The position numbers were made by a program, and so were the translations under genes. The notes beneath the pieces are model-generated. The model was given only the letters and a program-made list of their open reading frames with translations. It was not told the DNA's origin and made no database searches. From the IMG/VR virus record IMGVR_UViG_3300002835_001159, positions 1 through 22,883 of that record: a stretch of 22,883 bases of DNA. The stretch is one strand, 5' to 3'. The DNA comes from a virus. The number at the start of each line of letters is the position of its first letter. The stretch's first letter is position 1. Shown piece by piece: positions 6,697 to 22,597 of the stretch.

Positions 6697-6735
6697 GATA
6701 AATACTATTCCAAACTAAGATAAATACTATTCCAA
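6692..6735 (+). repeat. Perfect 22-bp tandem duplication with late-promoter-like TAAATA
   Basis: Two exact head-to-tail copies of a 22-bp unit (6692-6713 and 6714-6735) separate phoH from the radical SAM gene. Each copy contains GATAAATA, one base away from the T4 late promoter core TATAAATA, and each would place a start about 10 bases downstream. The first copy includes the phoH stop codon. The duplication may double a late promoter (or another binding site) in front of the modification cassette. Promoter activity is inferred from the motif only. Confidence 0.85.
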
Positions 6736-6752: not shown

Positions 6753-8204
6753 ATGATTTTTGAAATTGAAGCCACACGATTTGAAGATGGTGATAAAAGA
6801 GTTTTTCACTATGACAATATGGCTAATGTGTTGAAAGATTCTGATGGTAATGTGTTTGAATATCCGGCAGACCAAATGCCACAACATTCTTTGAAACCTT
6901 ACAAACCATTTGACAAGAATCGTCCACTAAAAAAATCAAAATTAATCAGCCATTTGAAGATTCAGATGGGGTTGAGTTGTAACTATTCTTGTGATTATTG
7001 TTCACAGAAGTTTGTTGAACGCCAACCAGAAACCTCTAAAAAAGATATTGATGTTTTTATGGAGAAATTAGATAATCTTCATTTTGATGAAGATGTTGGT
7101 TTAAGAGTTGAATTTTGGGGTGGTGAACCACTTGTTTATTGGAAAACAATGAAGCCATTGGCTGAGGCCATTGCAGAAAAATTTGACAGTTGGAAAACCA
7201 AACCACAATTCAGTGTTATCACCAATGGTTCGATACTAACTGATGAAATTATTGATTGGTTAATGATGATGGATTTTGCTGTGTCAATTTCACATGATGG
7301 ACCGGGTCAATTTGTACGTGGTCCTGATCCTTTTGATGATCCTGAACAAAAAGAACGTATTCTAGGATTCTATCGTATGATGACTAGACTTGGTAAAAGT
7401 TTTAGTTTTAATTCAATGTTGAACTCTAAAAACCAAAGTCGTAAAGAAATCTATGATTGGTTCGTAAATCTCACTGGTGATGAAAATGTTATCTTGGGTG
7501 AAGGTTCAATGGTTGATGCCTATGACGAAGAAGGTATATCATATTCACTAATCACAAAACAAGAACATTTCGATTTTAGGCAACGTGCCTTTGGTGAGTT
7601 GTATGGTACAGAAGGCCAAATTGGTTTTAGAGCACAATTAGGTAAAATTGATGATTTTGTAACTGGTGTATTGACTCATAGGGAATCTAAATATTTGGGT
7701 CAAAAGTGTGGTATGGATGATGAACACACTTTGTCTGTCGATTTACGTGGTAACATTATGACCTGCCAGAATGTGAGTTCTTTAGAAATTTCCAAGAACG
7801 GTGAATCACACCATGGTGGAAACTTAGAAGATTATGCAAAAGTTGAATTGAAGTCTGTTACGCATTGGTCTAACCGAAAAGAATGTCCAGAGTGTCCAGT
7901 GTTACATGTCTGTAAAGGTGCGTGTATGTTCTTGGATGAAAAGTTTTGGGATGTTTCTTGTGCTAATGCATACTCTGATAACGTGGCATTATTTGCGGCA
8001 GGATTCACAGTTATGACGGGTGGTTATATTCCGACACTAATTAAGAGTGATACTTTACCTCTTGAACGACAAGATATCTTTGGTAATATATTCACACACG
8101 AAGAAGATAAACAGAAAAAAATCATACCAATCAAGGTAATTAAAGAGATTATTGGTGAAGTGGATGAAGTTTTGGTTTATGGTAAATCTCGTTTAGAAAA
8201 CTAA
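6753..8204 (+). CDS. Radical SAM/SPASM-domain peptide maturase-like protein
   Basis: A 483-residue protein with a strong ribosome site (AGAGGAAA). The radical SAM cluster motif is C76-x3-C80-x2-C83, followed by the GGEP motif (123-126) that contacts SAM. The C-terminal half has a full SPASM pattern: C319, G333-x4-C338, then C378-x2-C381-x5-C387-x3-C391 and C403, enough for two auxiliary [4Fe-4S] clusters. Characterised SPASM proteins modify peptides or proteins, for example anaerobic sulfatase maturases, PqqE, and thioether-forming sactipeptide or ranthipeptide maturases. Residues 1-60 form a leader-like region without a clear RRE fold. The next gene, 28 bases on, encodes a Cys-rich protein, which makes it the obvious substrate candidate. 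Confidence 0.9.
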   Translation: MIFEIEATRFEDGDKRVFHYDNMANVLKDSDGNVFEYPADQMPQHSLKPYKPFDKNRPLKKSKLISHLKIQMGLSCNYSCDYCSQKFVERQPETSKKDIDVFMEKLDNLHFDEDVGLRVEFWGGEPLVYWKTMKPLAEAIAEKFDSWKTKPQFSVITNGSILTDEIIDWLMMMDFAVSISHDGPGQFVRGPDPFDDPEQKERILGFYRMMTRLGKSFSFNSMLNSKNQSRKEIYDWFVNLTGDENVILGEGSMVDAYDEEGISYSLITKQEHFDFRQRAFGELYGTEGQIGFRAQLGKIDDFVTGVLTHRESKYLGQKCGMDDEHTLSVDLRGNIMTCQNVSSLEISKNGESHHGGNLEDYAKVELKSVTHWSNRKECPECPVLHVCKGACMFLDEKFWDVSCANAYSDNVALFAAGFTVMTGGYIPTLIKSDTLPLERQDIFGNIFTHEEDKQKKIIPIKVIKEIIGEVDEVLVYGKSRLEN

Positions 8205-8208
8205 ATAA
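8201..8208 (+). promoter_or_regulatory. Possible late promoter (CTAAATAA)
   Basis: A CTAAATAA octamer lies across the stop codon of the radical SAM gene, 25 bases before the Cys/Asn-rich protein. It matches the TAAATA core of T4-type late promoters but not the preceding TA, so it is weaker than the 16228 site. It could give the virion-like gene its own late transcript. Confidence 0.35.
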
Positions 8209-8232
8209 TAACAACATTAGAGAGTAGAAAAA

Positions 8233-9123
8233 ATGACACTACCAGCATCAGGTCAACCCATTGGAGTATCAAACGTTAATGCAGCAGTTGGAAGGTCACC
8301 CACAACAAATGCAAGTTTGACTTTTTTAAATGGTTACATAAAACCAGTTATAAGACCGGGTACATCAAATTTAGGTTCTTTTAGTGGCCTAAGATTTTAT
8401 AGACAAAACACTGCCGGCAATTGTAATAATGTAAACAATAAAGCATGGAATTGTAATTGTGGTAATATTCAATGTAATTCAACAAACAACTGCACAGCAA
8501 TTAACTGTGCAAACTGTGACACACAATTTTGGTTACAAACTGGAGACTGTCAATTATCAACCACACCAGTGTACAACTGCACGAACAACCAAAATTGTTT
8601 CAGCTATAATTGTAATTGTTCGAAGATTATTTGTACAAAACTATTTGACCTCGGTTTAATGAAGAAAAATATCTTTGAGGCAGACCAAGCATTTGGTGAA
8701 CGTTTGCAAAAAACCAATCCGGATATCTACAATGGTTATCGTGCATGGGCGGAAATTGTTGTTGACTGGATGGATGGCAAAGGTCCTAAGATGATGCCTT
8801 GGATGTCCGATGATGAATTTAGTGCAGCTGCAAAGAAATGGTCCATCACTTGGGCTCACGATATTGCAACACCTTGGGCTGAAGAAATGGCATACTTAAT
8901 GGGTGAAAAGGAAACAGGCAGTCTGACAGGTAAAATGATGTTTGTGTTTGGTACACCAATCTGCAAGGTTATTGGTGTGTGGCAACGTTGGTTTGGACCA
9001 AGTAAAAAAGAACCTGGTTTCTTAAAAGGTGCTGGCCTTGTTGTAATTTTTGTAATGTTCAAGTTGGTTGCAGAACTAGGTCGTTTCATTGAGAAATTCA
9101 TACCAAGTAAAAAGGTTGCGTGA
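8233..9123 (+). CDS. Cys/Asn-rich virion-associated-like protein, candidate modification substrate
   Basis: A 296-residue protein in three parts. Residues 1-58 (MTLPASGQPIGVSNVNAAVG..., ending in GLRFYRQN) have the look of the N-terminal module of phage tail or appendage proteins. Residues 59-134 are extremely rich in Cys and Asn: 13 Cys (64, 74, 76, 81, 87, 92, 95, 106, 116, 122, 127, 129, 134) and about 20 Asn, often as NCNC. Residues 135-296 form a Trp-rich helical domain (GYRAWAEIVVDWM, MMPWMSDDEF) ending in a hydrophobic segment (268-286, GLVVIFVMFKLVAELGRFI). I recall C-terminal domains of this type in hypothetical T4-like phage proteins. Its place between radical SAM and oxygenase genes suggests a precursor-like substrate; a metal-binding domain is the main alternative. 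Confidence 0.8.
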   Translation: MTLPASGQPIGVSNVNAAVGRSPTTNASLTFLNGYIKPVIRPGTSNLGSFSGLRFYRQNTAGNCNNVNNKAWNCNCGNIQCNSTNNCTAINCANCDTQFWLQTGDCQLSTTPVYNCTNNQNCFSYNCNCSKIICTKLFDLGLMKKNIFEADQAFGERLQKTNPDIYNGYRAWAEIVVDWMDGKGPKMMPWMSDDEFSAAAKKWSITWAHDIATPWAEEMAYLMGEKETGSLTGKMMFVFGTPICKVIGVWQRWFGPSKKEPGFLKGAGLVVIFVMFKLVAELGRFIEKFIPSKKVA

Positions 9124-9413
9124 TGCCAGTATATTCTTCAACTAGACCGGTTAAAATATTGATTAACAATTTGGATTATACAGATGAACATCTGACACAT
9201 TTTTTTAACACATATAGTTTAAATGCCTTCGATTTAATGACACAACAAAAAAAAGAACGTGTTTTTGAAATGTTAACAAAACATGAAAATTTACTAACAA
9301 AATTTTATGGTAATGCTTTACTCAAAAGTGGAGTTTTTGTTCCAAAATTAGCTAGAGATAATGTTGATAATGTATATGTTACAGAATATAAAAAGTGGTT
9401 GGAAAAACAATGA
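9123..9413 (+). CDS. Small unknown protein in the modification cassette
   Basis: A 96-residue, mostly helical protein starting at the ATG overlapping the previous TGA (TGATG). Notable are Asn-rich N-terminal strands (VKILINNLDYTDEHL), a central helix (KKERVFEMLTKHENLLTKFYG) and the C-terminus EYKKWLEKQ. No Cys residues and no recognised domain. The following protein ends similarly (QFKEWFEKQNY) and has a comparable acidic helix in the middle, so the two may be distant paralogues. A chaperone or partner role for the cassette is conjecture. Confidence 0.65.
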   Translation: MPVYSSTRPVKILINNLDYTDEHLTHFFNTYSLNAFDLMTQQKKERVFEMLTKHENLLTKFYGNALLKSGVFVPKLARDNVDNVYVTEYKKWLEKQ

Positions 9414-9796
9414 AGAATTATTCACACACTTTACTACCAACAATAAAAACATATGATAATGAAAATATTTTATTTAATCAATCATTAATACCAAATTTTG
9501 TTAAAAAAACATTCTTCGAAAGAGTTGTTGCTTTAAGTGAAGAAGAAAGAGATGAATTTTTCCGCATGAGTTATGAGTATGAGGATGTATTATTTGAAAT
9601 GTTTGACGGCCAGATTGAGAATTTGACGGAAGCTGGTTGGACAACCGCAACCGATACAATCTTTAGAAATCCAACAGAAGAATATGAAAATTATGCATCT
9701 TTACCGAAAGATGCTGATTTGACAGATGAGGAACATCAGTTGAAATTGGAACACCTAAGACAATTTAAAGAATGGTTTGAAAAACAAAACTATTGA
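9410..9796 (+). CDS. Small unknown protein in the modification cassette
   Basis: A 128-residue acidic protein. The ATG at 9410 overlaps the previous stop (ATGA) and is preferred to an upstream in-frame ATG lying inside the preceding gene. It has an N-terminal part with SLIPNFVKKTFFERVVALSE, an acidic helix (EERDEFFRMSYEYEDVLFEM), and a C-terminal helix ending QFKEWFEKQNY that echoes the protein before it. I do not recognise a family. Confidence 0.65.
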   Translation: MKNYSHTLLPTIKTYDNENILFNQSLIPNFVKKTFFERVVALSEEERDEFFRMSYEYEDVLFEMFDGQIENLTEAGWTTATDTIFRNPTEEYENYASLPKDADLTDEEHQLKLEHLRQFKEWFEKQNY

Positions 9797-9805
9797 TTTT
9801 TTATT

Positions 9806-10513
9806 ATGACACAAAATATTATGACAAGAGAAGACAGAGAAAAATACCATTGGTATCAAAATGCACAGAACATGTTTTGGCAAAGTCCAATTTGGGAAGT
9901 ACAAACACGTTTTGATGAAGAATTTAATGAAACTCTGTTAGATGAAATTTATGGTATCGGCAAAGATATCGTATTGGGTAAAGACAAAGACCCAAACAAC
10001 AGTATATGGGACTACAGTAGACCCAACTTAGATATACTTAAACAAGAAATTATAGACATTGTAACCAAGAAAATTGTGCAAAATATTCCACAACTCAGAA
10101 TGTTAAATATTCGTGGTTGTGAACACTTCATGGGTTGGGTCAATGTGCGTGAACCAGGAGAACGCTTAGAGGTGCATGGACACACCGAATCTGCTATCGC
10201 AGCAACGTATTACATAAAGGCTAAAGAAGGTTGTGGTGACCTTGTGGCGTTTGATTCTGCACAAGCAATTGATTGGTTAAATAATACTCTAAGTAACACA
10301 CCAAAATTGCGAGAACGTAGGTTTAAACCAGTTGAAGGTAGATTGATATTTTTTCCATCATATGTTTTGCATGGCGTTAATGAAAATAAATCTGATGATT
10401 TACGCATTTCATTGTCAACCGACCTAAGAAAAGTTGTAGACAAAAATGCACAGAATACGGTAATTTTAAAATCGTGGGCTGGCCGCATGGCAAAAATTAG
10501 AGAATGGAAATAA
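9806..10513 (+). CDS. 2-oxoglutarate/Fe(II) oxygenase-like protein (PF13759-type)
   Basis: A 235-residue protein whose centre fits the phage-common putative 2OG-Fe(II) oxygenase family: 'EVH124-G-H126-TESAIAATYYI', then GDLVAFDS, then 'P-EGRLIFFPSYVLH189GV' and finally R200-I-S. The two His plus the distal His form the expected iron site and R200 the 2OG-binding position. Members of the superfamily couple 2OG decarboxylation to hydroxylation of protein, nucleic acid or small-molecule targets; no substrate is known for this branch. No clear Shine-Dalgarno site precedes the start (an alternative ATG is at 9821), unlike its neighbours. It is coupled to the next gene by a stop/start overlap. Confidence 0.85.
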   Translation: MTQNIMTREDREKYHWYQNAQNMFWQSPIWEVQTRFDEEFNETLLDEIYGIGKDIVLGKDKDPNNSIWDYSRPNLDILKQEIIDIVTKKIVQNIPQLRMLNIRGCEHFMGWVNVREPGERLEVHGHTESAIAATYYIKAKEGCGDLVAFDSAQAIDWLNNTLSNTPKLRERRFKPVEGRLIFFPSYVLHGVNENKSDDLRISLSTDLRKVVDKNAQNTVILKSWAGRMAKIREWK

Positions 10514-11043
10514 TGTTTACAAAACTGGAAACAAATTTTGAAAAACCATTATATGCAGTTACCGACCCACTAAAAAATTTCAAACATGAAGGTAAAGGTA
10601 TCGACTATAAAAAGATATGGTCACCTGAGGCTGACAAAATATATGGTGTGATACCAAAAAGGTATTGGCAGGACTTTCACTTGACAGTTATGACAATTGA
10701 TTGTATAATCCCACCACACACAGATACTGAAATTATCACCTCTATAAATTTCTATATGCAAACCGAAGGTTGCACAACAACTTTTTATAAACCGAAGGTG
10801 GAGATTCCAAAAACTGTACAGGTTGAGAATCAAACCAATGGACATATATATTTTGAAGAAGATTTAATTGAAGTTGGTAGTTTTGTTGCTAAAGATTATG
10901 ATATTTGGTTACTTGATGTAAGTCAAATACATGGCGTTAAGGGTAAATTTAATTTACGTAAAGCCATTACCTTAGGAACTTTTGTTCATAAGTATCAGGA
11001 CGTACTAGAAATGTTAAAGGAAACCAATAATGTCGTTTGTTAA
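10513..11043 (+). CDS. 2OG/Fe(II) oxygenase-like protein, paralogue A
   Basis: A 176-residue protein starting at the ATG that overlaps the previous TAA (an ATG nine bases earlier lies inside the upstream gene). An H69-x-D71 motif (PPHTDTE), distal H140 (IHGV) and R149-K-A give the facial triad and 2OG-binding Arg of the cupin-type oxygenases. It is clearly paralogous to the next protein: compare YGVIPKRYWQDFHLTVMTID with YKVIPERYWKDFQVTRMSIN. It is small for the superfamily but complete around the core. The substrate is unknown; tandem placement suggests the pair acts on related positions of one target. Confidence 0.75.
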   Translation: MFTKLETNFEKPLYAVTDPLKNFKHEGKGIDYKKIWSPEADKIYGVIPKRYWQDFHLTVMTIDCIIPPHTDTEIITSINFYMQTEGCTTTFYKPKVEIPKTVQVENQTNGHIYFEEDLIEVGSFVAKDYDIWLLDVSQIHGVKGKFNLRKAITLGTFVHKYQDVLEMLKETNNVVC

Positions 11044-11701
11044 ATTAAAACATACATATGAATATATGCCACACACCATTATACCACAAGGTAAGGCTGA
11101 TTCATTTGCTGGAAAATATGGACTAGGTGTAAGACACAGTACAATTTGGACACCAGAACCTGAAAAAGAAGTGTTGTATAAAGTTATACCTGAAAGGTAT
11201 TGGAAAGATTTTCAAGTAACAAGAATGTCTATTAATAGTTTGTTGTTACCACACGTTGATAATGATTTTATAACAACAATCAATTTTTATTATGACCCAC
11301 AGAATTACAGGACAGTTTTTTTCAAACCAAAACCAGGAGCAAATTCTTGGAAGACAGAAGAAGATAGACACCATGGTGTTGATGAGGGAACAATTATAGA
11401 CCAAAATGTGAATGTTGAGGAACTAAAAACCAGAGTTAAAGAATTTGTATCGGAGAAACAAAATATGCCGACATGTGAAGAAATAACATATGTTGATGCG
11501 GTATATACTTTCGATGATGTTTATGAAATTGGATCTTTTATTGCTCAACCTAGCGAAGCATACCTGTTAGATGTGAGAGTACCACATAATGTTGAACCTT
11601 TGGGTGGTGAAGCAAATCTTAGGAAAGCTTTTGCACTTAGGACCAAATTGTATGATTATGGCCAAGTATATGAAATGTTGCAGGAAACTGGAAATTTATA
11701 A
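11030..11701 (+). CDS. 2OG/Fe(II) oxygenase-like protein, paralogue B
   Basis: A 223-residue paralogue of the preceding protein, overlapping it by 14 bases. The conserved triad is H75-x-D77 (LPHVDND), H186 (VPHNVEP) and R198-K-A. Compared with paralogue A it carries an extra segment of about 45 residues between FFKPKPG and VYEIGSF (roughly 104-160), rich in charged residues, which could shape substrate binding. Both paralogues end with a similar helix (YDYGQVYEMLQET versus HKYQDVLEMLKET). The tandem duplication with divergence points to specialised but related reactions. Confidence 0.76.
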   Translation: MSFVKLKHTYEYMPHTIIPQGKADSFAGKYGLGVRHSTIWTPEPEKEVLYKVIPERYWKDFQVTRMSINSLLLPHVDNDFITTINFYYDPQNYRTVFFKPKPGANSWKTEEDRHHGVDEGTIIDQNVNVEELKTRVKEFVSEKQNMPTCEEITYVDAVYTFDDVYEIGSFIAQPSEAYLLDVRVPHNVEPLGGEANLRKAFALRTKLYDYGQVYEMLQETGNL

Positions 11702-11711
11702 AGGATAACAA

Positions 11712-12506
11712 ATGTTTTTTGAAAAATTAGACTACACAGTAAATATTGAGAAGTTGAAACAAGAAGTAAGGGATAGCGTTTTTACTTTGGGTGACCAAGT
11801 TATTCAAGGTGAAGAATATGAAACTCCAAAATACAATGGTTTTGGTGGTTGGAGTATTCTATGCAAAGAAGCCACATGGACTGGTGGTTGGGAAGCTATT
11901 CAGTTGGAAAAAGGTCAATCACTAGAATCATTTTTACCGACAGAAGAATTGATTTACAAAGCATACAAACATTTTAATGTATCTCATGGTTTGGAACATG
12001 ACAAACCAACGGAAGCTTATGTTGGCGAAATTAAGAAAGTTTTGGACGATATACGTGAAATGGGATTTTATCCAACCAGAGCAAGAGTTACTTGTTTGAA
12101 AGCAAATTCAAAAAGTTTGGTACACAGAGATGCTGAAGAAAAAGAATATATGGCTCGTATTCACATTCCACTATTCACAAATAAAAAATGTGTACACATT
12201 TGTCAAGGTAAAAATTTACACATGCCTGCTGATGGTGGCGTTTGGATTCTTTGGGTGAATCAATGGCACCAAATTAGAAATGATTCCGATGAAGATAGAT
12301 ACCATATCATTATGGATGCTTACGACACCAAAAAGGTAACAAAACATTTTAAATATGAAGGTGAGTTTGAACAAATGTTAAAATTTGTTGGTAGTATGAG
12401 AGAAAAGATTGATAGTGTAGAATTGACAGAAGAAGATATAGACTTCTTTGAAGCTATCAGACAAAAATATGTAACTAAAAAAATTAGAGATTTTGAAATT
12501 TATTAA
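11712..12506 (+). CDS. Aspartyl/asparaginyl beta-hydroxylase-like protein
   Basis: A 264-residue protein with AAGGA ribosome site. The region from about residue 122 to 205 fits the AspH-type fold: VTCLKANSKSLVH138-R-D140, RIHIPLFTN, then QWH186-QIRN and R196 ahead of HIIMDAYD. H138, D140 and H186 bind iron; R196 would hold 2-oxoglutarate. Family members hydroxylate Asp or Asn side chains of proteins or peptides, or free amino-acid derivatives. The Asn-rich protein encoded four genes upstream is therefore a natural candidate substrate. The N-terminal 120 residues are specific to this protein (GFGGWSILCKEATWTGGWEA). No signal peptide, so it acts in the host cytoplasm. Confidence 0.86.
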   Translation: MFFEKLDYTVNIEKLKQEVRDSVFTLGDQVIQGEEYETPKYNGFGGWSILCKEATWTGGWEAIQLEKGQSLESFLPTEELIYKAYKHFNVSHGLEHDKPTEAYVGEIKKVLDDIREMGFYPTRARVTCLKANSKSLVHRDAEEKEYMARIHIPLFTNKKCVHICQGKNLHMPADGGVWILWVNQWHQIRNDSDEDRYHIIMDAYDTKKVTKHFKYEGEFEQMLKFVGSMREKIDSVELTEEDIDFFEAIRQKYVTKKIRDFEIY

Positions 12507-12509
12507 ATT

Positions 12510-14027
12510 ATGACAGATATACACGGTATCGTTTTTACCGGTATGGAACGAACTAGAACAATTAGTCGACCAGCTGGTGCAGCAAGATTGAGGACAGTTT
12601 TAGACCAACATGGTTATAACATGGAAGTTATTGATTATTTTGGCAACTTCACGGATGAAGAAATTGAAACAATCTGTGCTAGATTTATTGGACCAAAAAC
12701 ACTGTTTGTTGGCGTCAGTATTACCTTCATCTATGCATTTGATAAGGTGAATCACCTATTCAATCATATTAAAGAAAAATATCCACACGTAAAGACTTTA
12801 ATTGGCGGCAATGAGACACCAATTAGTGGTATAGATTTAACTAAGGTTGATAGAATTTTTTGGGGATATGCCGAAGAAGCGGTATTACACTATTTAAAAT
12901 TCCTGACAAAAAAACGATTGGATGATTTAAAGTGGGTTCCTTATAGAGAAACTTTTTCTATCAATGCCGAAATGGTGTACAAGAATGATGATACTGATTT
13001 ATCCATAAAATGGTTGGAGAGCGACTTAATCAAAAACAATTTCTTGCCTATTGAAATTAGTAGGGGTTGCATTTTCAGATGCAGGTTCTGTGCCTTTCCA
13101 TTGTTGGGTAAAAAGAAGAACGATTACATTCGTCACGTAGATAATTTGGCTGCCGAATTGCGTAGAAACTATGAGATGTTTGGTGTAAACAATTATTGGT
13201 TTAATGATGATACGTTTAATGATAACGTGGTTAAATTAGATTATGTTGCTGAAGCAATTGCAAAGAGTGGTGTTAAGATTACATACACAGCGTTCTTACG
13301 TGCAGATTTGATTGAACGTTTTCCAGAAACTATACCCATGTTAGCGGACACTGGTTTGGTTGCTGCAACATTTGGTTTAGAATCACTGCATCCAGAGGCC
13401 AAGAAGGCCATTGGTAAAGGCCTAGATAATGAAAGACAGTTTGAAGCAATTAGACAGTTAAAGAAATATAAACCAATTTACACATATACTGGTATGATTT
13501 GTGGGTTACCTGGAGAACCAATCTCTAGTGTGTATAAAAGTCAGCAATTATTGTTGGACCAAAACTTTGAAGTATTTGATAATTGGGATTGGTGGCCTTT
13601 GTTGATTAGAAAAGGATCAGTCAGTCGTTTAAGTGAATTTGAAAAAGAATATGAAAAATGGGGTTACAGTGAAATGTTACCTGGAGAATTTAAAGTTCCC
13701 ACAGGTGATGATGATTTTAGATATGCACAACCTGATGAAGGAACAATGATTTGGAAAAACAAATATACAAACTGGTATACTGCAAGGCGTGTTGCTGATT
13801 CATTGAATAAAGAAACAGAACAACATCGAATCAAAGCTGGTAAATCAATTTACGGTAATGCTGATAAAGGTGTCAGTATCAACCATGATGTATTTGAACT
13901 GGTTGGTATGGGAGTTGATATTAAAGATATCATTGATGGAACATTTGACAAAACTTTTTTGAATAAAAAAATCGAAGAAGCAGACCAAACTATCCTTGAA
14001 TATAAAAACTTAAAGTTAGGATTATAA
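12510..14027 (+). CDS. Cobalamin-binding-type radical SAM enzyme
   Basis: A 505-residue protein. Residues 1-135 look like a B12-binding Rossmann domain (VLDQHGYNMEVIDYF, LFVGVSITFIYAFDKVNHLF, KTLIGGNETPISG), although the classical DxHxxG cobalamin ligand is not present, as in many class B enzymes. The radical SAM motif is C187-x3-C191-x2-C194 (ISRGCIFRCRFCAF), followed by NNYWFNDDTFND and TFGLESLHPEAKKAIGKG, typical of this class. Characterised relatives carry out methylations of unactivated carbon and other radical reactions, including peptide C-methylation in polytheonamide-type pathways. The C-terminal 150 residues (WDWWPLLIRKGS onward) are not recognised. It closes the cassette, stop abutting the next ATG. 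Confidence 0.88.
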   Translation: MTDIHGIVFTGMERTRTISRPAGAARLRTVLDQHGYNMEVIDYFGNFTDEEIETICARFIGPKTLFVGVSITFIYAFDKVNHLFNHIKEKYPHVKTLIGGNETPISGIDLTKVDRIFWGYAEEAVLHYLKFLTKKRLDDLKWVPYRETFSINAEMVYKNDDTDLSIKWLESDLIKNNFLPIEISRGCIFRCRFCAFPLLGKKKNDYIRHVDNLAAELRRNYEMFGVNNYWFNDDTFNDNVVKLDYVAEAIAKSGVKITYTAFLRADLIERFPETIPMLADTGLVAATFGLESLHPEAKKAIGKGLDNERQFEAIRQLKKYKPIYTYTGMICGLPGEPISSVYKSQQLLLDQNFEVFDNWDWWPLLIRKGSVSRLSEFEKEYEKWGYSEMLPGEFKVPTGDDDFRYAQPDEGTMIWKNKYTNWYTARRVADSLNKETEQHRIKAGKSIYGNADKGVSINHDVFELVGMGVDIKDIIDGTFDKTFLNKKIEEADQTILEYKNLKLGL

Positions 14028-15029: not shown

Positions 15030-15632
15030 ATGAAGATACCTAAAACCATTTGGTCTAAAGAAGAAATTTTAATTGCAGATGAATTGTTGGAGTTGGCACC
15101 AAAGTTACGTGATGACTTTTTGGAGTATCATAAAGACTTTTACACTACATTTACTGGCGGCAACTCTTATGCTTCAAAAAATAAAAATGCAGTTTTGGAC
15201 GCAGAAGAACGTGTTATTTGGAAAGTTGAAGGACTAAGGTATTCTCTACCGCAAAAAGGCATCGAACGTAATATGTTCCTTGAACCTGAAATGAGAAATG
15301 CATTTCCTACTGCCTCATCTTTAACACAAAAATATATACAACATTGTGGTTGCAGTGGTTATAGCATATTGGATCCAGGTGGTGTTATCACTAGGCATGT
15401 TGATATAGAAAACTATTTAAGAAAAACAGTTAGAATACATATTCCACTCATTATTCCAGAAGGCGATGTGTATTTGGAAGTTAGAGGTGTTGAATTGGAT
15501 TGGTCAAATTTATTTGCATTTGATAATGGTGATTGGCACAGTGCATATAACAAAACAGAGAAAAGACGATTGGTTTACATCATAGATATATCAAGGTCTT
15601 TTTTAGGAATTCCGGAAATCGGAAGAGGTTAG
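15030..15632 (+). CDS. Aspartyl/asparaginyl beta-hydroxylase-like protein (second copy)
   Basis: A 200-residue AspH-like oxygenase with GGAG (15021-15024) as ribosome site, immediately after the tmRNA. The core is ITRH123-V-D125, RIHIPLIIPEG, then NGDWH170-SAYN and R179/R180 before LVYIIDI. H123, D125 and H170 bind Fe(II). The RIHIPL block is shared with the AspH-like protein at 11712, but the rest differs, so this is a second, divergent member. It may belong functionally with the modification cassette although the nuclease and tmRNA lie between. It is probably transcribed from the tmRNA promoter and processed away from the tmRNA precursor. Confidence 0.85.
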   Translation: MKIPKTIWSKEEILIADELLELAPKLRDDFLEYHKDFYTTFTGGNSYASKNKNAVLDAEERVIWKVEGLRYSLPQKGIERNMFLEPEMRNAFPTASSLTQKYIQHCGCSGYSILDPGGVITRHVDIENYLRKTVRIHIPLIIPEGDVYLEVRGVELDWSNLFAFDNGDWHSAYNKTEKRRLVYIIDISRSFLGIPEIGRG

Positions 15633-15680: not shown

Positions 15681-16223
15681 TTGAAGAAAATCAGTTTTAT
15701 TTTGGCCTCTTTGGTCATCAGTGCTTCAGCAATGGCACAAGGTTATGGTTCATTGGAATATTCAGATGAAACAAACCGTGCAACAGATGCAAAAAACATT
15801 AAAGAAGCAGTTGTCATTGGTAATAAAGTTGGTTCTACCGACTATAGCCTTAAAATGGAAAACAGCCAGTCTGCACTTGGCAGTGGTTCAATTTCACAAG
15901 GATTAGAAGTTCGTGTGAGACAATCTATCGGTGCTTTCTACGTTGGTGGACGTTTGGGTGAAAGAGTAACCAGTTCAACACATTTTAGTCATTACGCAGT
16001 TGATGCTGGTGTTAAATTCCCATTGGTTGCTGGTTTGACTGGTGATGTTGGTGCTCGTTATCGTAATGCATTTGATACTACAAACGCATATCAAACGACC
16101 CGTGTTCACACAGCAGTCGGTTACGATTTGACCAAACAAGACAAAGTTGCAGTTCGTTGGAGCCGTTCATATGGTGACGAAGAAAAAGACGCATGGCGTC
16201 TACAGTACACACGTAGTTTTTAA
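15681..16223 (+). CDS. Secreted outer-membrane beta-barrel (porin-like) protein
   Basis: A 180-residue protein starting with TTG; AGGAG at 15670-15674, six bases upstream, fixes this start. Residues 1-19 are a classical Sec signal peptide (MKKISFILASLVISASAMA, cleavage before QG). The mature part alternates polar and apolar residues with many aromatic girdle positions (GAFYVGGRLGERV, DVGARYRNAFDTT, DKVAVRWSRSYG) and ends with a terminal Phe (RLQYTRSF), the signal used by the BAM machinery. The size suits an 8-stranded OmpA/OmpX-like barrel. It is almost certainly made to alter the host outer membrane, for example masking the phage receptor or changing permeability; which one is unknown. No T4 homologue is known to me. 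Confidence 0.85.
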   Translation: MKKISFILASLVISASAMAQGYGSLEYSDETNRATDAKNIKEAVVIGNKVGSTDYSLKMENSQSALGSGSISQGLEVRVRQSIGAFYVGGRLGERVTSSTHFSHYAVDAGVKFPLVAGLTGDVGARYRNAFDTTNAYQTTRVHTAVGYDLTKQDKVAVRWSRSYGDEEKDAWRLQYTRSF

Positions 16224-19444: not shown

Positions 19445-20884
19445 TTATACAACCCTTGTGGAAGCAATAATTAATTGCATGAATGTTGGTTCATCATTAC
19501 GCACAGATATTTGACTAGGTCTTAATCCAGTTCTTTCTTGCTTCTGTGAGAGATTGCTTACTGTCTTGTTAATAATAGGTTTCATATCATTAGATGCGGC
19601 AGGTTTAGGTAAATTCAAATCAGAATTGGTATTTGATAATGATGAAACAGGTGCAGACTTAGGTACTGGCACAACTGGTTGCAATTTTTTAGGAACTGGA
19701 GAAGTAATTAAACCACCTTGTGCATCAAATTCCATTCCCGCTGGTGCTTGTGGTTTAATTACAGGTGCTGGTGGTACAGGTGTTGGTTTAGGTGCTTGAA
19801 ACTTATTCGGTGGCAAAGCAATCACATTACCTTCAGGATCAAACATCATATCTTCTGGTGCTGCAGGTTCTGCTCGGTGTTTACCTTCCTTTTTTAGTCT
19901 TAAATATTCGGTTTCATTTTTAATTCTTGCGGCTTTTGCTTCAGTTGCCACATTTGGTGAAATTACACCACCTACTACCTCCGTACCTCTAGCGATATTG
20001 GATTCAATCCTTTCGACCGCATTAAATTCTTTATAGTTCTGTTCATCCTTTTCATTATCAATTACAATATCAGTCCCATCAGGATTCTTTCCAACACCAA
20101 GATACTCACCTGCTAAAGCATCAGCACCATAAATCATTGCACCTACAGCTGCTGCAGCTGCCACAGTCGGTAACATACGTAGACCAAATTTACCTGCTTG
20201 TGTGAGTCCTTTAGAAAGTGGCATGCCTATTTTTTTAGCCATATCAAACATGAATTTTCGCATTTCACCAAGCATCTCTGCCAAGCCTTTGATATTATCC
20301 CATATGTTACCAAACATTGAAGTTTTTTCCATTGGTTCAGCAGTCATCTTACCACCAGAATTAATATGTTTCATCAACTTCTGTAGTGTGTCAACCAATT
20401 CTTTATGACGTTTACCTTTTTCCAAGGCAATTTCTTCCTCAGAATTTTTAGCCAATTGTTTTAACTTAATATCTTCTTCACGATTATTTTGTAGGAAAGA
20501 AAATATTTTTGCTAATTGTTGATTGATGCCTTCTGAATCACCGTCACCACCAACTTTCTTTAATCTATCTGCGGTGTTTCTGGTGCCAACAACACTTTTA
20601 GTACGGCCAGTAAAATAGTCAATATCTTTTTGATTACGACCAGTCATTTTACCAAACAAAGCGGGACCAAATCTGGATCCCATAGTCATAAATCTTACGA
20701 TATTCAAAGGATCAAATTTCTCTTTGATGCCTTTAATTCTAGCCTGAGCTTTCATTGAAATGGTTTTACCAACAGCACCAAGTACACTTCTATCACTTTG
20801 TGCTAGTTGGTCAAGCAATATGTCGGAAAATTTTGCTTTTCTGACACTTCTAGCCTGTTGATAATTTAGTTTATTATCTGCCAT
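19445..20884 (-). CDS. Putative virion (baseplate/tail) structural protein
   Basis: A 479-residue protein, last of the minus-strand block. The N-terminal 100 residues are basic (NYQQARSVRKAKFSDILLDQ...), then comes a helical segment with EEEIALEKGKRHKELVDTLQ, a hydrophobic Ala-rich stretch (PTVAAAAAVGAMIYGADALAG, about 240-260), a Pro/Ala-rich linker (roughly 345-410) and a C-terminal NDEPTFMQLIIASTRVV. The linker and Ala-rich part suggest an extended tail protein; the order after a gp26-like gene and a virion lysozyme places it among baseplate/tail genes. No enzyme motif. I cannot equate it with one T4 gene. Confidence 0.68.
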   Translation of the reverse strand: MADNKLNYQQARSVRKAKFSDILLDQLAQSDRSVLGAVGKTISMKAQARIKGIKEKFDPLNIVRFMTMGSRFGPALFGKMTGRNQKDIDYFTGRTKSVVGTRNTADRLKKVGGDGDSEGINQQLAKIFSFLQNNREEDIKLKQLAKNSEEEIALEKGKRHKELVDTLQKLMKHINSGGKMTAEPMEKTSMFGNIWDNIKGLAEMLGEMRKFMFDMAKKIGMPLSKGLTQAGKFGLRMLPTVAAAAAVGAMIYGADALAGEYLGVGKNPDGTDIVIDNEKDEQNYKEFNAVERIESNIARGTEVVGGVISPNVATEAKAARIKNETEYLRLKKEGKHRAEPAAPEDMMFDPEGNVIALPPNKFQAPKPTPVPPAPVIKPQAPAGMEFDAQGGLITSPVPKKLQPVVPVPKSAPVSSLSNTNSDLNLPKPAASNDMKPIINKTVSNLSQKQERTGLRPSQISVRNDEPTFMQLIIASTRVV

Positions 20885-20887
20885 TTT

Positions 20888-22597
20888 TTACTTTCTTTGG
20901 TGTGCTGGTCTATCATCAACCTTTGGTGTATTTGATGATTCGGTTGTGTTGTTTACGTTAGTTGTATTTTGTTGTATGTTTATTGGCGCAGGAGTGTCCT
21001 GTTTCTTCATATCTTTATTATCTTTTGATGCACTATCAATTCTATTACCCGTATTGCTTTGCGGTTGCATAAATTCGTTTAATTTCTTTTCATCCAAAGC
21101 CCCAAAAGACAAACCTATAACTTTTCCTTTTGTGGTACTTATTTTCTTTTTATATTCACCAACAGTTAATTTCGCAATTGTTTTGTTTGATTGTACTTGA
21201 GAATCACTCATAACATCAGACATTTTTGTATCATCAGAGGCAAAATATATTTTTGCTGCACCTTTCGGTCCAGCAAAATGCGTCATGTAAATTGTCGCTT
21301 CTGAAACAGGAACTTTTAAACGTTTTAGTTGTGTAACTTCATCCTTAAAAAAAGCATCATGTAAACGTTCTTGATTTTCTTTGTTGAATGGTTGATTTTT
21401 CCAATCTGGTCCAAAAACTTTTTCAGCTAAACCTTTATTTTTAGAATCGCCACGCAAAACTGAAGGCATAAATTGATATTTACCCATGGCAACACCAATA
21501 CTGCCTCTTTTGCCTTCTTTATTTTTAGGATTAAATTCTATTCTTCTTTGTTCAGCTAATTCCAAAACTTGTTGTAAAGACATATTTGTTAAATTGTACT
21601 TATTCCAATTAGTATCTTTTTTGCCCGCATTATTCATTATGTTATAAGATTTTTCAGACGTACCAGCGGATTCGTGTGTTGATATTTTATCACCAATTTC
21701 TTGAGCAAAACTTATACTTGTTGCAGCTGCAATCGCTGTTCCAATACCAATTTGAGTTGCAGTTGATGGTCCAGTTTTTGGTAATTCTGGTGGTTTTTGA
21801 GTCGCAGTAGGTGGCTTAACTGGTTCTGCATCTTTCTTTAATTTTTCAGATTTAGCTTTCTCCGCAGCCTCACGTTTTAATTTTTCTTGTTCCTCTTTCT
21901 TTAATTTTTCTGCTGTTTCTTTCTTAGCCTTTTCCTCAGCAGCTTTCTTAGCCTTTTCCTCAGCTTCTTTTTTGGCTTTGGTTTCAGCAGCTTTTTTGGC
22001 TGCCTCTTGAGCATCTTTTTTAGCCTTTTCTTCAGCAGCTTTTTTAACTCCGTCATCAACTTCTCTTTTGGCTTTTTCAACTGGTTTTTCAGCTGGTTTA
22101 GCTGGCTCTGCTGGTTTCTTTGCAGGTTCAGCTGGTTTAGTAGGTTCAGTTGGTTTAGTTGGCTCACCTGGTTTCTTAGGTGGCTCACCTGGTTTCTTAG
22201 GCGGTTCTTTGGCCTTTTCTTCTGCCTTCTTCTCACGGCGTATAACTGCTTTAGGTTTTGGTCTTCTACGTATAGTCAAGGCCTTGACTATTTCAGAGTG
22301 TCTTTTTTGTTCCTCAGAATCTTCTTCTTCTCTAAAGTTAACCTGTTGTTCACGTTCTAATTTTATATCGACACTGTTTTGCACCATCAATTTATAAATT
22401 TCACCGAGATATTCGGCGTTAGACATTGAATCGGTGTCAGTTATCTTTTCTGTTGAACCAAATTTTTTGTGCAGAATATCACCAATTTTATTGACAGACC
22501 TTTTTAAAAATCCAGCCGATTGTTTAGTTTTTTCAGACGCAACAGGGCTTGACGATTTATCGCCTGTGCCTTCTTTTTTATTTCCGAATAACTTCAT
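20888..22597 (-). CDS. Virion-associated lysozyme/transglycosylase with TolA-like linker
   Basis: A 569-residue protein. Residues 1-130 are charged and helical, 131-175 are PKKPGEP/PAEPAK-type repeats, and 176-258 are KAAEEKAKK-type helical repeats like the TolA stalk. A short hydrophobic stretch follows (283-297), then a lysozyme-like domain from about 300: E309 in STHESAG is the likely catalytic acid, and GVAMGKYQFMPSVLRG (368-383) is the transglycosylase/lysozyme core pattern. The C-terminus is Asn/Gln-rich. It is probably carried in the tail and cuts peptidoglycan during DNA injection, comparable in role to T4 gp5 but not in architecture. The start overlaps the preceding stop as ATGA. Confidence 0.8.
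   Translation of the reverse strand: MKLFGNKKEGTGDKSSSPVASEKTKQSAGFLKRSVNKIGDILHKKFGSTEKITDTDSMSNAEYLGEIYKLMVQNSVDIKLEREQQVNFREEEDSEEQKRHSEIVKALTIRRRPKPKAVIRREKKAEEKAKEPPKKPGEPPKKPGEPTKPTEPTKPAEPAKKPAEPAKPAEKPVEKAKREVDDGVKKAAEEKAKKDAQEAAKKAAETKAKKEAEEKAKKAAEEKAKKETAEKLKKEEQEKLKREAAEKAKSEKLKKDAEPVKPPTATQKPPELPKTGPSTATQIGIGTAIAAATSISFAQEIGDKISTHESAGTSEKSYNIMNNAGKKDTNWNKYNLTNMSLQQVLELAEQRRIEFNPKNKEGKRGSIGVAMGKYQFMPSVLRGDSKNKGLAEKVFGPDWKNQPFNKENQERLHDAFFKDEVTQLKRLKVPVSEATIYMTHFAGPKGAAKIYFASDDTKMSDVMSDSQVQSNKTIAKLTVGEYKKKISTTKGKVIGLSFGALDEKKLNEFMQPQSNTGNRIDSASKDNKDMKKQDTPAPINIQQNTTNVNNTTESSNTPKVDDRPAHQRK
21824..22207 (-). repeat. Low-complexity Pro/Lys/Ala/Glu repeat region inside the lysozyme gene
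   Basis: 22073-22207 encodes imperfect proline repeats, including two consecutive EPPKKPG/KKPGEP units nearly identical at DNA level. 21824-22072 encodes repeated KAAEEKAKK-like units. Together they give a rigid Pro rod followed by a long charged single helix, a plausible spacer across the virion or periplasm. Such DNA is prone to slippage and length variation between strains. Confidence 0.8.

Follow-up and report, generated by a model that had tools for sequence, protein, structure and literature searches.

Many phages appear to carry a radical SAM enzyme, often with iron oxygenases, dedicated to modifying an Asn-Cys-rich tail-fiber end

The DNA analyzed here, hereafter the window, is the whole 22,883-nucleotide stretch at positions 1 to 22,883 of the viral IMG/VR record IMGVR_UViG_3300002835_001159. 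A cassette at 6753-14027 encodes a radical S-adenosylmethionine (SAM) enzyme of the SPASM type, a Cys/Asn-rich protein, and several predicted 2-oxoglutarate (2OG)/Fe(II) oxygenases. Its relatives suggest that many phages appear to carry such an enzyme, often with iron oxygenases, dedicated to modifying the Asn-Cys-rich end of a tail fiber. All nine open reading frames (ORFs) and the intact metal-binding motifs reported in an earlier sequence-only reading of this DNA (the original prediction) were borne out by their coordinates, Pfam scores, and invariant residues. The cassette, with its domains and one possible accessory gene, is laid out as follows (pLDDT, predicted local distance difference test score of the structure model).

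6753..8204, + strand: radical SAM/SPASM maturase-like enzyme (phrog_1802), from Pfam, PHROG, NCBIfam, and alignment
8233..9123, + strand: proposed substrate, virion-like protein of 296 amino acids with a Cys/Asn-rich middle
8419..8622, + strand: Cys/Asn-rich region of that protein, residues 63-130, with repeated Asn-Cys dipeptides, modeled mostly at pLDDT <50
8623..9096, + strand: its C-terminal all-helical domain, residues 131-288, 'KIICTKL...ADQAFG', from sequence and model
9120..9413, + strand: small protein with no family match in Pfam, PHROG, or NCBIfam (PHROG match only at E 0.03)
9395..9796, + strand: small protein with no family match in Pfam, PHROG, or NCBIfam (NCBIfam match only at E 0.09)
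9806..10513, + strand: oxA, 2OG-Fe(II) oxygenase (2OG-FeII_Oxy_5; PF13759, 63.8 bits, cut-off 27)
10504..11043, + strand: oxB, 2OG-Fe(II) oxygenase-like, from the HxD...H...R motif and a structure model
11030..11701, + strand: oxC, oxB paralogue, oxygenase-like, from paralogy and motif
11712..12506, + strand: AspH-like aspartyl/asparaginyl beta-hydroxylase (PF05118, 35.5 bits, cut-off 22.6)
12510..14027, + strand: B12-type radical SAM enzyme, optional member (PF04055, 69.5 bits)
15030..15632, + strand: second small hydroxylase-like protein (by eye), matching phrog_25472, possible accessory member

The first enzyme matches PF04055 at 39.2 bits (cut-off, 29.5) and shows the pattern of radical SAM/SPASM proteins, a CX3CX2C motif plus seven SPASM cysteines (C319, C338, C378, C381, C387, C391, and C403), all invariant across 39 aligned sequences including its own. 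Its nearest NCBIfam models are peptide maturases, the closest families being PapB, QhpD, CcpM, and SCIFF, every one of which scores far under its cut-off; the PapB model (NF047865) gives 80.4 bits against a cut-off of 340, and eight further enzymes of the set reach 50 to 107 bits with it. These four families are thioether-forming maturases. An RRE/PqqD-like precursor-recognition domain had no Pfam match on the enzyme at E 0.1, a search that a diverged domain could escape.

The claim of three 2OG/Fe(II) oxygenase-like proteins stood for oxA, which exceeds its Pfam cut-off as does the AspH-like protein, whereas oxB and oxC have no Pfam match and are read as oxygenases because motif and structure model support it. 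In this pair, H72, D74, H143, and R152 are invariant across 50 aligned sequences, and the oxB model (pLDDT 91.8) has a beta-barrel-type fold. The top PDB match of this model is the 2OG protein hydroxylase MINA53, a modest one (E 2e-4, TM-score of about 0.47), followed by YcfD and NO66 intermixed with other cupins. Profile comparison of oxB/oxC with oxA and the AspH-like protein found nothing. The B12-binding domain of the last enzyme scores 29.4 bits, under its cut-off of 32.1, and the protein is a putative methylase judging by its sequence. Overlapping stops and starts had also been offered as a sign of a cassette. The nine genes meet at eight junctions, half of them overlapping and half with gaps of 3-28 nucleotides, and comparable packing occurs elsewhere in the window (e.g., 2419/2416 and 5521/5518); gene coupling was therefore rejected as cassette evidence.

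The product of the gene at 8233 consists of an N-terminal segment, a Cys/Asn-rich middle that is mostly unordered in the model, and the helical C-terminal domain, and it has no Pfam, PHROG, or NCBIfam match at E 0.1. Across 54 distinct Cys/Asn regions of its relatives, Asn precedes 628 of 790 cysteines, versus 181 expected after shuffling. With the window enzyme alone as the query, 74 viral loci were retrieved (window-type loci), and all 74 carry the Cys/Asn gene downstream of the radical SAM gene, within about 50 nucleotides of the enzyme match in 70 and at 0.7-1.5 kb in 4. Whether the Cys/Asn gene always occurs with both radical SAM genes had been put forward as a check; it does so with the SPASM enzyme (74/74), whereas the B12-type gene is present in only 21/74. 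Homologues of the Cys/Asn gene devoid of these enzymes, which had been named as refuting evidence, were sought, and none was found save where the contig ends shortly after the gene. Relatives of the small proteins at 9120 and 9395 and of the hydroxylase-like protein at 15030 were found by tblastn in 24, 21, and 20 of the 74 loci, respectively.

The association is more general. A scan of viral contigs for (Asn-Cys)4 codons, blind to enzymes, yielded at least 120 loci, in 102 of which the motif lies in an ORF of at least 60 amino acids and in 92 of these 102 within 20 residues of the stop; tail counts refer to these 92 loci and leave out, of 120 listed loci, 18 with the motif outside such an ORF and 10 with the motif away from the C terminus. 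Among the matches listed, 73 of the 92 tail loci have a homologue of the radical SAM enzyme (phmmer, E ≤1e-10), always on the same strand, in 72 cases downstream, and at a median distance of about 1.28 kb. The homologue was absent from the 18 listed loci without the motif in such an ORF and from all 120 (Ser-Asn)4 control loci, and it accompanies 2 of the 10 listed loci with the motif away from the C terminus. The difference between 73/92 (among the matches listed) and 0/120 corresponds to a Fisher p of 2e-39, uncorrected for relatedness. Among the matches listed, 12 of the 19 tail loci without the enzyme have one elsewhere in the record, three of them only a weaker one (E 2e-22 to 9e-19), and in the other 7 the contig breaks off 0.07-1.42 kb downstream of the tail. 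No enzyme was detected at E 1e-10 in 24 records in which the motif is out of frame, sits in the interior of an ORF, or falls in an ORF that is very short or spurious.

The linkage also holds in reverse. Two enzyme scans (at least 71 and at least 77 loci) were checked for an NC-rich ORF within 6 kb, which was present in 68/71 and 48/77 loci (116/148, among the matches listed), versus 0/120 and 0/40 controls. A looser version reaching up to 7.9 kb raised the count to 131/148 among the matches listed, regaining 15 of the 32 listed loci missed by the strict test, and was also positive in 1/120 and 3/40 controls. Within the 17 loci missed by both, L629 (5 kb upstream) has the start of a Cys-alternating ORF downstream, L576 shows, at the edge of its contig, a trace of the repeat that is out of frame, and L607 and L639 have under 2 kb of upstream sequence available, all judged by eye; apart from two loci taken up below, the remainder end near the enzyme on one side. 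The linkage of enzyme and repeat gene is thus strong in both directions, and the central idea of the original prediction, a Cys/Asn protein tied to modifying enzymes, is upheld both by the 74 window-type loci and by the (Asn-Cys)n tails linked to radical SAM and 2OG genes. In bacteria, an (Asn-Cys)4 scan of at least 117 loci returned mostly simple DNA repeats, with a radical SAM gene within 0/117 among the matches listed, a figure limited by the 8-kb locus size because the L271 locus, once extended, proved real: its (NC)n gene, which has Hint-like sequence, is followed after about 1.5 kb by a radical SAM gene.

The repeat ends tail-fiber-like proteins. Seven of eight tested repeat-bearing proteins match PHROG tail families (the weakest, L186, at E 0.0075; L190 has no match), and proteins with (NC)n tails range from 65 to 704 amino acids. 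In 76 distinct tails, the X of (X-C)n is Asn at 348 of 410 positions. Within viral tails, two successive Asn-Cys hexamers have the same sequence in 65 of 216 cases, versus 93 of 118 in bacterial DNA repeats; because the viral repeat codons are mixed, it is the peptide, not a slipping DNA repeat, that is selected. What follows the repeat varies, being the helical C-terminal domain in the window and elsewhere either the stop or a Hint-type (self-cleaving) domain. The L190 protein bridges the window-type Cys/Asn protein and the terminal-tail form: a window-family profile that omits the Cys region matches its N terminus (E 8.5e-13), its C terminus is an (NC)7 run with no helical domain, and its radical SAM gene starts 18 nucleotides downstream.

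A cultured example is the siphovirus Achromobacter phage JWF, in which an enzyme 44% identical to that of the window lies just downstream of the tail-fiber gene (gp028), with one gene between; the product of this tail-fiber gene reads NCNCDCNCNCSC where a Hint domain (PF05203, 47.5 bits) begins. Among cultured phages, full-length enzyme relatives were found only in Achromobacter phages JWF and 2-1. Hint sequences follow (Asn-Cys)n in L004:5811-7262 (Pfam), L257:2-850, L271:1340-2905, and L636:5873-7306 (pattern), and L632:4482-5996 (by eye). As judged from sequence, self-cleavage at such a domain would expose the (Asn-Cys)n tail as a C terminus. In L109, a 101-residue ORF ends in NCNCNCNCNC; plasmids gave no match to the L109 enzyme at E 1e-20. 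A DctP-type solute-binding protein (PF03480, 174 bits) is encoded near this phage cassette at L109:11866-12807, and a similar-looking ORF was noted by eye at L652:2708-3655.

Partner enzymes recur at these loci. Profiles built from the window oxygenases and five oxygenase-like clusters from tail loci (four of whose representatives match Pfam 2OG families, one above cut-off) match 46/92 tail loci among the matches listed and 71/74 window-type loci, versus 1/120 controls and 0/40 Gly-type loci. The three window-type loci without a match are contigs ending early, and the profiles also match 2 of 28 listed scan loci without a tail gene. An oxygenase lies between the tail and enzyme genes in 36 of 73 tail-plus-enzyme loci, among the matches listed. 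A third partner, with a beta-rich-looking C terminus and no Pfam match, occurs in 66/92 tail loci and 51/77 loci of the second enzyme scan, among the matches listed, and in 0/120 and 0/40 controls; the window lacks it, as do all 74 window-type loci. The B12-type gene found in part of the window-type set also lies beside cassettes in L103, L156/L615 (one contig), and L634. In L121, one cassette combines a tryptophan halogenase gene (PF04820, 305 bits) and a B12-type radical SAM gene with three 2OG-like genes, one of which falls just short of its Pfam cut-off. Halogenase relatives occur in 9/71 and 3/77 enzyme loci and 3/120 (Asn-Cys)4 scan loci among the matches listed, some of them weak, versus 0/120 controls. 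A tryptophan halogenase gene near radical SAM, Cys/Asn protein, and 2OG genes was additionally noted at L652:10464-11648 and in 12 loci of the radical SAM scan (e.g., L547, L552, and L569).

The helical domain of the 8233 product was considered as a mark of the enzyme's substrate and rejected, since Gly-rich proteins with the domain are not accompanied by a full-length enzyme and the enzyme does occur with (NC)n tails that lack the domain. The domain is likewise the C terminus of other phage proteins, with a poly-Gly or poly-Pro linker, recurs in the model of a DUF4815 phage protein, and has no solved-structure match, its relatives being from phages only. The N-terminal profile of the 8233 family weakly matches four Gly-rich proteins (L111, E 4e-4; L112, L113, and L105, E 0.003-0.005). 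The enzyme was searched for in 44 records, 43 of which had been selected by helical-domain matches of at least 118 residues; a full-length enzyme was present in four (L100, L103, and L109, with a Cys/Asn-type linker, and L121), and four further records had partial matches only (E 4e-7 to 1e-11). The only Gly-type exception, L121, has its Gly-type proteins far from the enzyme and a separate 143-residue Cys/Asn protein encoded 15 nucleotides upstream of it. In Synechococcus phage SynMITS9220M01 (L003:10669-12519), the helical domain follows a long poly-Pro/poly-Arg linker in a protein encoded next to a fiber gene.

The two-way gene linkage, the intact active-site motifs, the C-terminal position of the tail on tail-fiber-like proteins, and the selection on the repeat peptide are observed, whereas action of the enzyme on the repeat, its chemistry, and its biological role are inferred. 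We consider it probable, by roughly two chances in three, that these phages encode a virion-modification system in which a SPASM enzyme and 2OG oxygenases tailor the Asn-Cys stretch of a fiber, likely by thioether formation and hydroxylation. The substrate of the SPASM enzyme would be the Asn-Cys-rich stretch of a tail fiber or similar virion protein, modified inside the infected cell ahead of assembly; thioethers formed between Cys sulfurs and nearby carbons, the most likely product, would convert a floppy (Asn-Cys)n tail into a rigid, redox-stable knob at the fiber tip. Further decoration of this protein, e.g., hydroxylation of Asn, would come from the 2OG oxygenases, joined in some phages by a tryptophan halogenase or a B12 radical SAM enzyme, and the modified tip would then serve host attachment, tip stability, or envelope penetration. 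Cross-linking of the tail is the simplest reading because the nearest families are thioether formers and a Cys occupies every second position of the target. The bolder version, in which radical SAM enzymes with interchangeable 2OG oxygenases, B12 radical SAM enzymes, and halogenases rebuild the tail into a polycyclic tip that works as an attachment or penetration device, and thereby constitute a widespread, undescribed virion chemistry, would in our judgment have an even chance of being right.

Several points weigh against this proposal. Tail modification is here a prediction from genes, and the thioether chemistry is an extrapolation because the nearest characterized families lie far under their cut-offs (80 of 340 bits for PapB). 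The 8233 product itself has no PHROG match and no run longer than NCNC, and its comparison with the L190 protein by two-sequence BLAST (39% identity) is not significant, with a composition-adjusted E of 37. Half of the listed tail loci have no match to the 2OG profiles, which were themselves built in part from such loci. For L617 and L586, no Cys-rich tail gene was found in the 8 kb available upstream of the enzyme, and they are real exceptions as far as seen. Finally, many contigs are near-duplicates, and the 190 distinct radical SAM proteins amount to 26 clusters at 60% identity. At least one Cys-rich neighbor, by the strict or looser test, is found in 24 of these 26 clusters, in a set partly picked by motif, and the window-type set, the (Asn-Cys)4 scan, and both enzyme scans overlap in contigs and relatedness.

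Other explanations fare less well. The same enzyme-substrate pair might be engaged in epimerization or carbon-carbon cross-linking of the repeat, which would yield a gramicidin- or polytheonamide-like helix at the fiber tip if every second residue were epimerized. The strict (X-C)n alternation, with X mostly Asn, would suit an alternating D/L helix, and polytheonamide is itself Asn-rich and made with a radical SAM epimerase; we nevertheless hold this to be rather unlikely, given that the best family matches are thioether-forming maturases and that a Cys at every second position invites sulfur chemistry. Dense cysteines, and the existence of metal-tipped phage spikes, would also accommodate a metal- or Fe-S-binding tip, with the enzymes acting elsewhere or aiding metal loading. 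SPASM enzymes of this lineage modify peptides, and the 2OG oxygenases, halogenases, and B12 enzymes beside the gene are not needed for metal loading, which makes such a tip very unlikely. Equally little credence is given to a diffusible product, i.e., a modified Cys/Asn peptide cut from its carrier at the Hint or helical domain and released against host or competitors. The Hint domain after the repeat in JWF gp028 (Pfam) and the Hint-like sequences of L257, L271, L636 (pattern), and L632 (by eye) would fit that scheme, in contrast to the position of the repeat near the stop in 92 of 102 in-frame viral loci (among the matches listed), the tail-fiber family matches upstream of it, and the lack of any peptidase or exporter family among ten window proteins scanned with Pfam. 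That the genes are ordinary auxiliary metabolic genes, adjacent by chance, as the richness of some T4-like marine phage genomes in 2OG or radical SAM genes might suggest (HTVC008M; PMC5332604), is highly improbable in view of the two-way linkage and the Fisher test given above.

As for known systems, the proposed virion tailoring most resembles PapB, SCIFF/CteB (5wgg), QhpD, and CcpM, which share the SPASM architecture and a Cys-rich neighbor gene and are the nearest sequence relatives. Their precursors are short peptides, whereas the protein linked to the phage enzyme is a 296-residue virion-like protein or a tail fiber. Polytheonamide, an Asn-rich proteusin, is made with radical SAM epimerase, B12 radical SAM, and oxygenase enzymes, and the phage loci likewise combine radical SAM, B12 radical SAM, and oxygenase genes with an Asn-rich target. 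Unlike polytheonamide, the candidate substrate has no leader-family match (a nitrile-hydratase-like proteusin leader had no Pfam or NCBIfam match on the 8233 product at E 0.1), and the B12 enzyme is present in only some loci. The suggestion that the cassette is a polytheonamide-like pathway for a ribosomally synthesized and posttranslationally modified peptide (RiPP) is consequently not supported, as no leader family was matched and no short precursor was found. Nor does the system classify as a sactipeptide or ranthipeptide RiPP pathway, because no short precursor with leader and core was found and the enzyme lies far under the family cut-offs, even though it may work like one.

Radical SAM maturases are known to act on peptides and a few enzymes, and their action on virus particles appears new as far as literature searches show. 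No description of radical SAM modification of virion proteins, and no virion proteome of phage JWF, was found in the literature searched, which was covered in part and excluded preprints. Pelagimyophages carry radical SAM gene cassettes in the tail-fiber host-recognition region of T4-like genomes, as in our system; these are mentioned in passing, with no substrate, motif, or mechanism in the accessible part of the report (PMC7029224). A T4-like environmental genome has 12 radical SAM genes, again with no substrate in the accessible part (PMC5332604). HTVC008M gp079 is a tryptophan halogenase encoded beside a 2OG oxygenase among structural genes, and halogenase relatives occur in some loci with a radical SAM enzyme and a Cys/Asn protein; around HTVC008M gp079 and VirX1 of cyanophage Syn10, the annotation of the regions examined names no radical SAM gene, though it leaves many genes as hypothetical. 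VirX1 has been characterized on small molecules (PMC8407142). In nature, phage halogenases such as VirX1 might act on virion protein. In the cultured Pelagibacter phage HTVC008M (L653, 53778-75076), a tryptophan halogenase gene and five genes annotated as 2OG oxygenases lie among the structural genes.

If this reading is true, phages apply natural-product-style chemistry to the part that contacts the host, with bearing on host range and tip stability, and fibers might be inactive when the fiber gene is expressed alone. The repeat would then offer a testable target for phage 2OG oxygenases and halogenases with unclear natural substrates, which on the bolder version would be enzymes for tailoring virions. 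The loci would also provide many new radical SAM enzymes whose likely substrates are encoded beside them.

The window comes from a phage with T4-type replication genes (gp32 and a helicase loader), its gp32 being 55-57% identical to cyanophage gp32; its DNA had no megablast match in phage records. The description "T4-like phage" is thus apt for the window, but not as a limit on the system, since the siphovirus JWF has it too. In the gap between phoH and the cassette lie two short elements.

6697-6704 and 6719-6726, + strand: two GATAAATA copies

These GATAAATA copies resemble T4-type late promoters, and late expression would fit their position upstream of the radical SAM gene, which is weak evidence. 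ATAAATA is kept upstream of the enzyme in about 12 of 20 aligned regions (by eye), mainly close relatives, and occurs 4 times in the window versus 8.2 expected, i.e., it is not enriched. Small proteins that by eye look like outer-membrane beta-barrels with a signal peptide are encoded near cassettes (window 15681-16223 and L109:18824-19312) and are possibly receptor decoys or superinfection exclusion factors. Two long minus-strand genes occupy 19445-20884 and 20888-22597 of the window, one without a PHROG match and the other with weak transglycosylase/virion matches.

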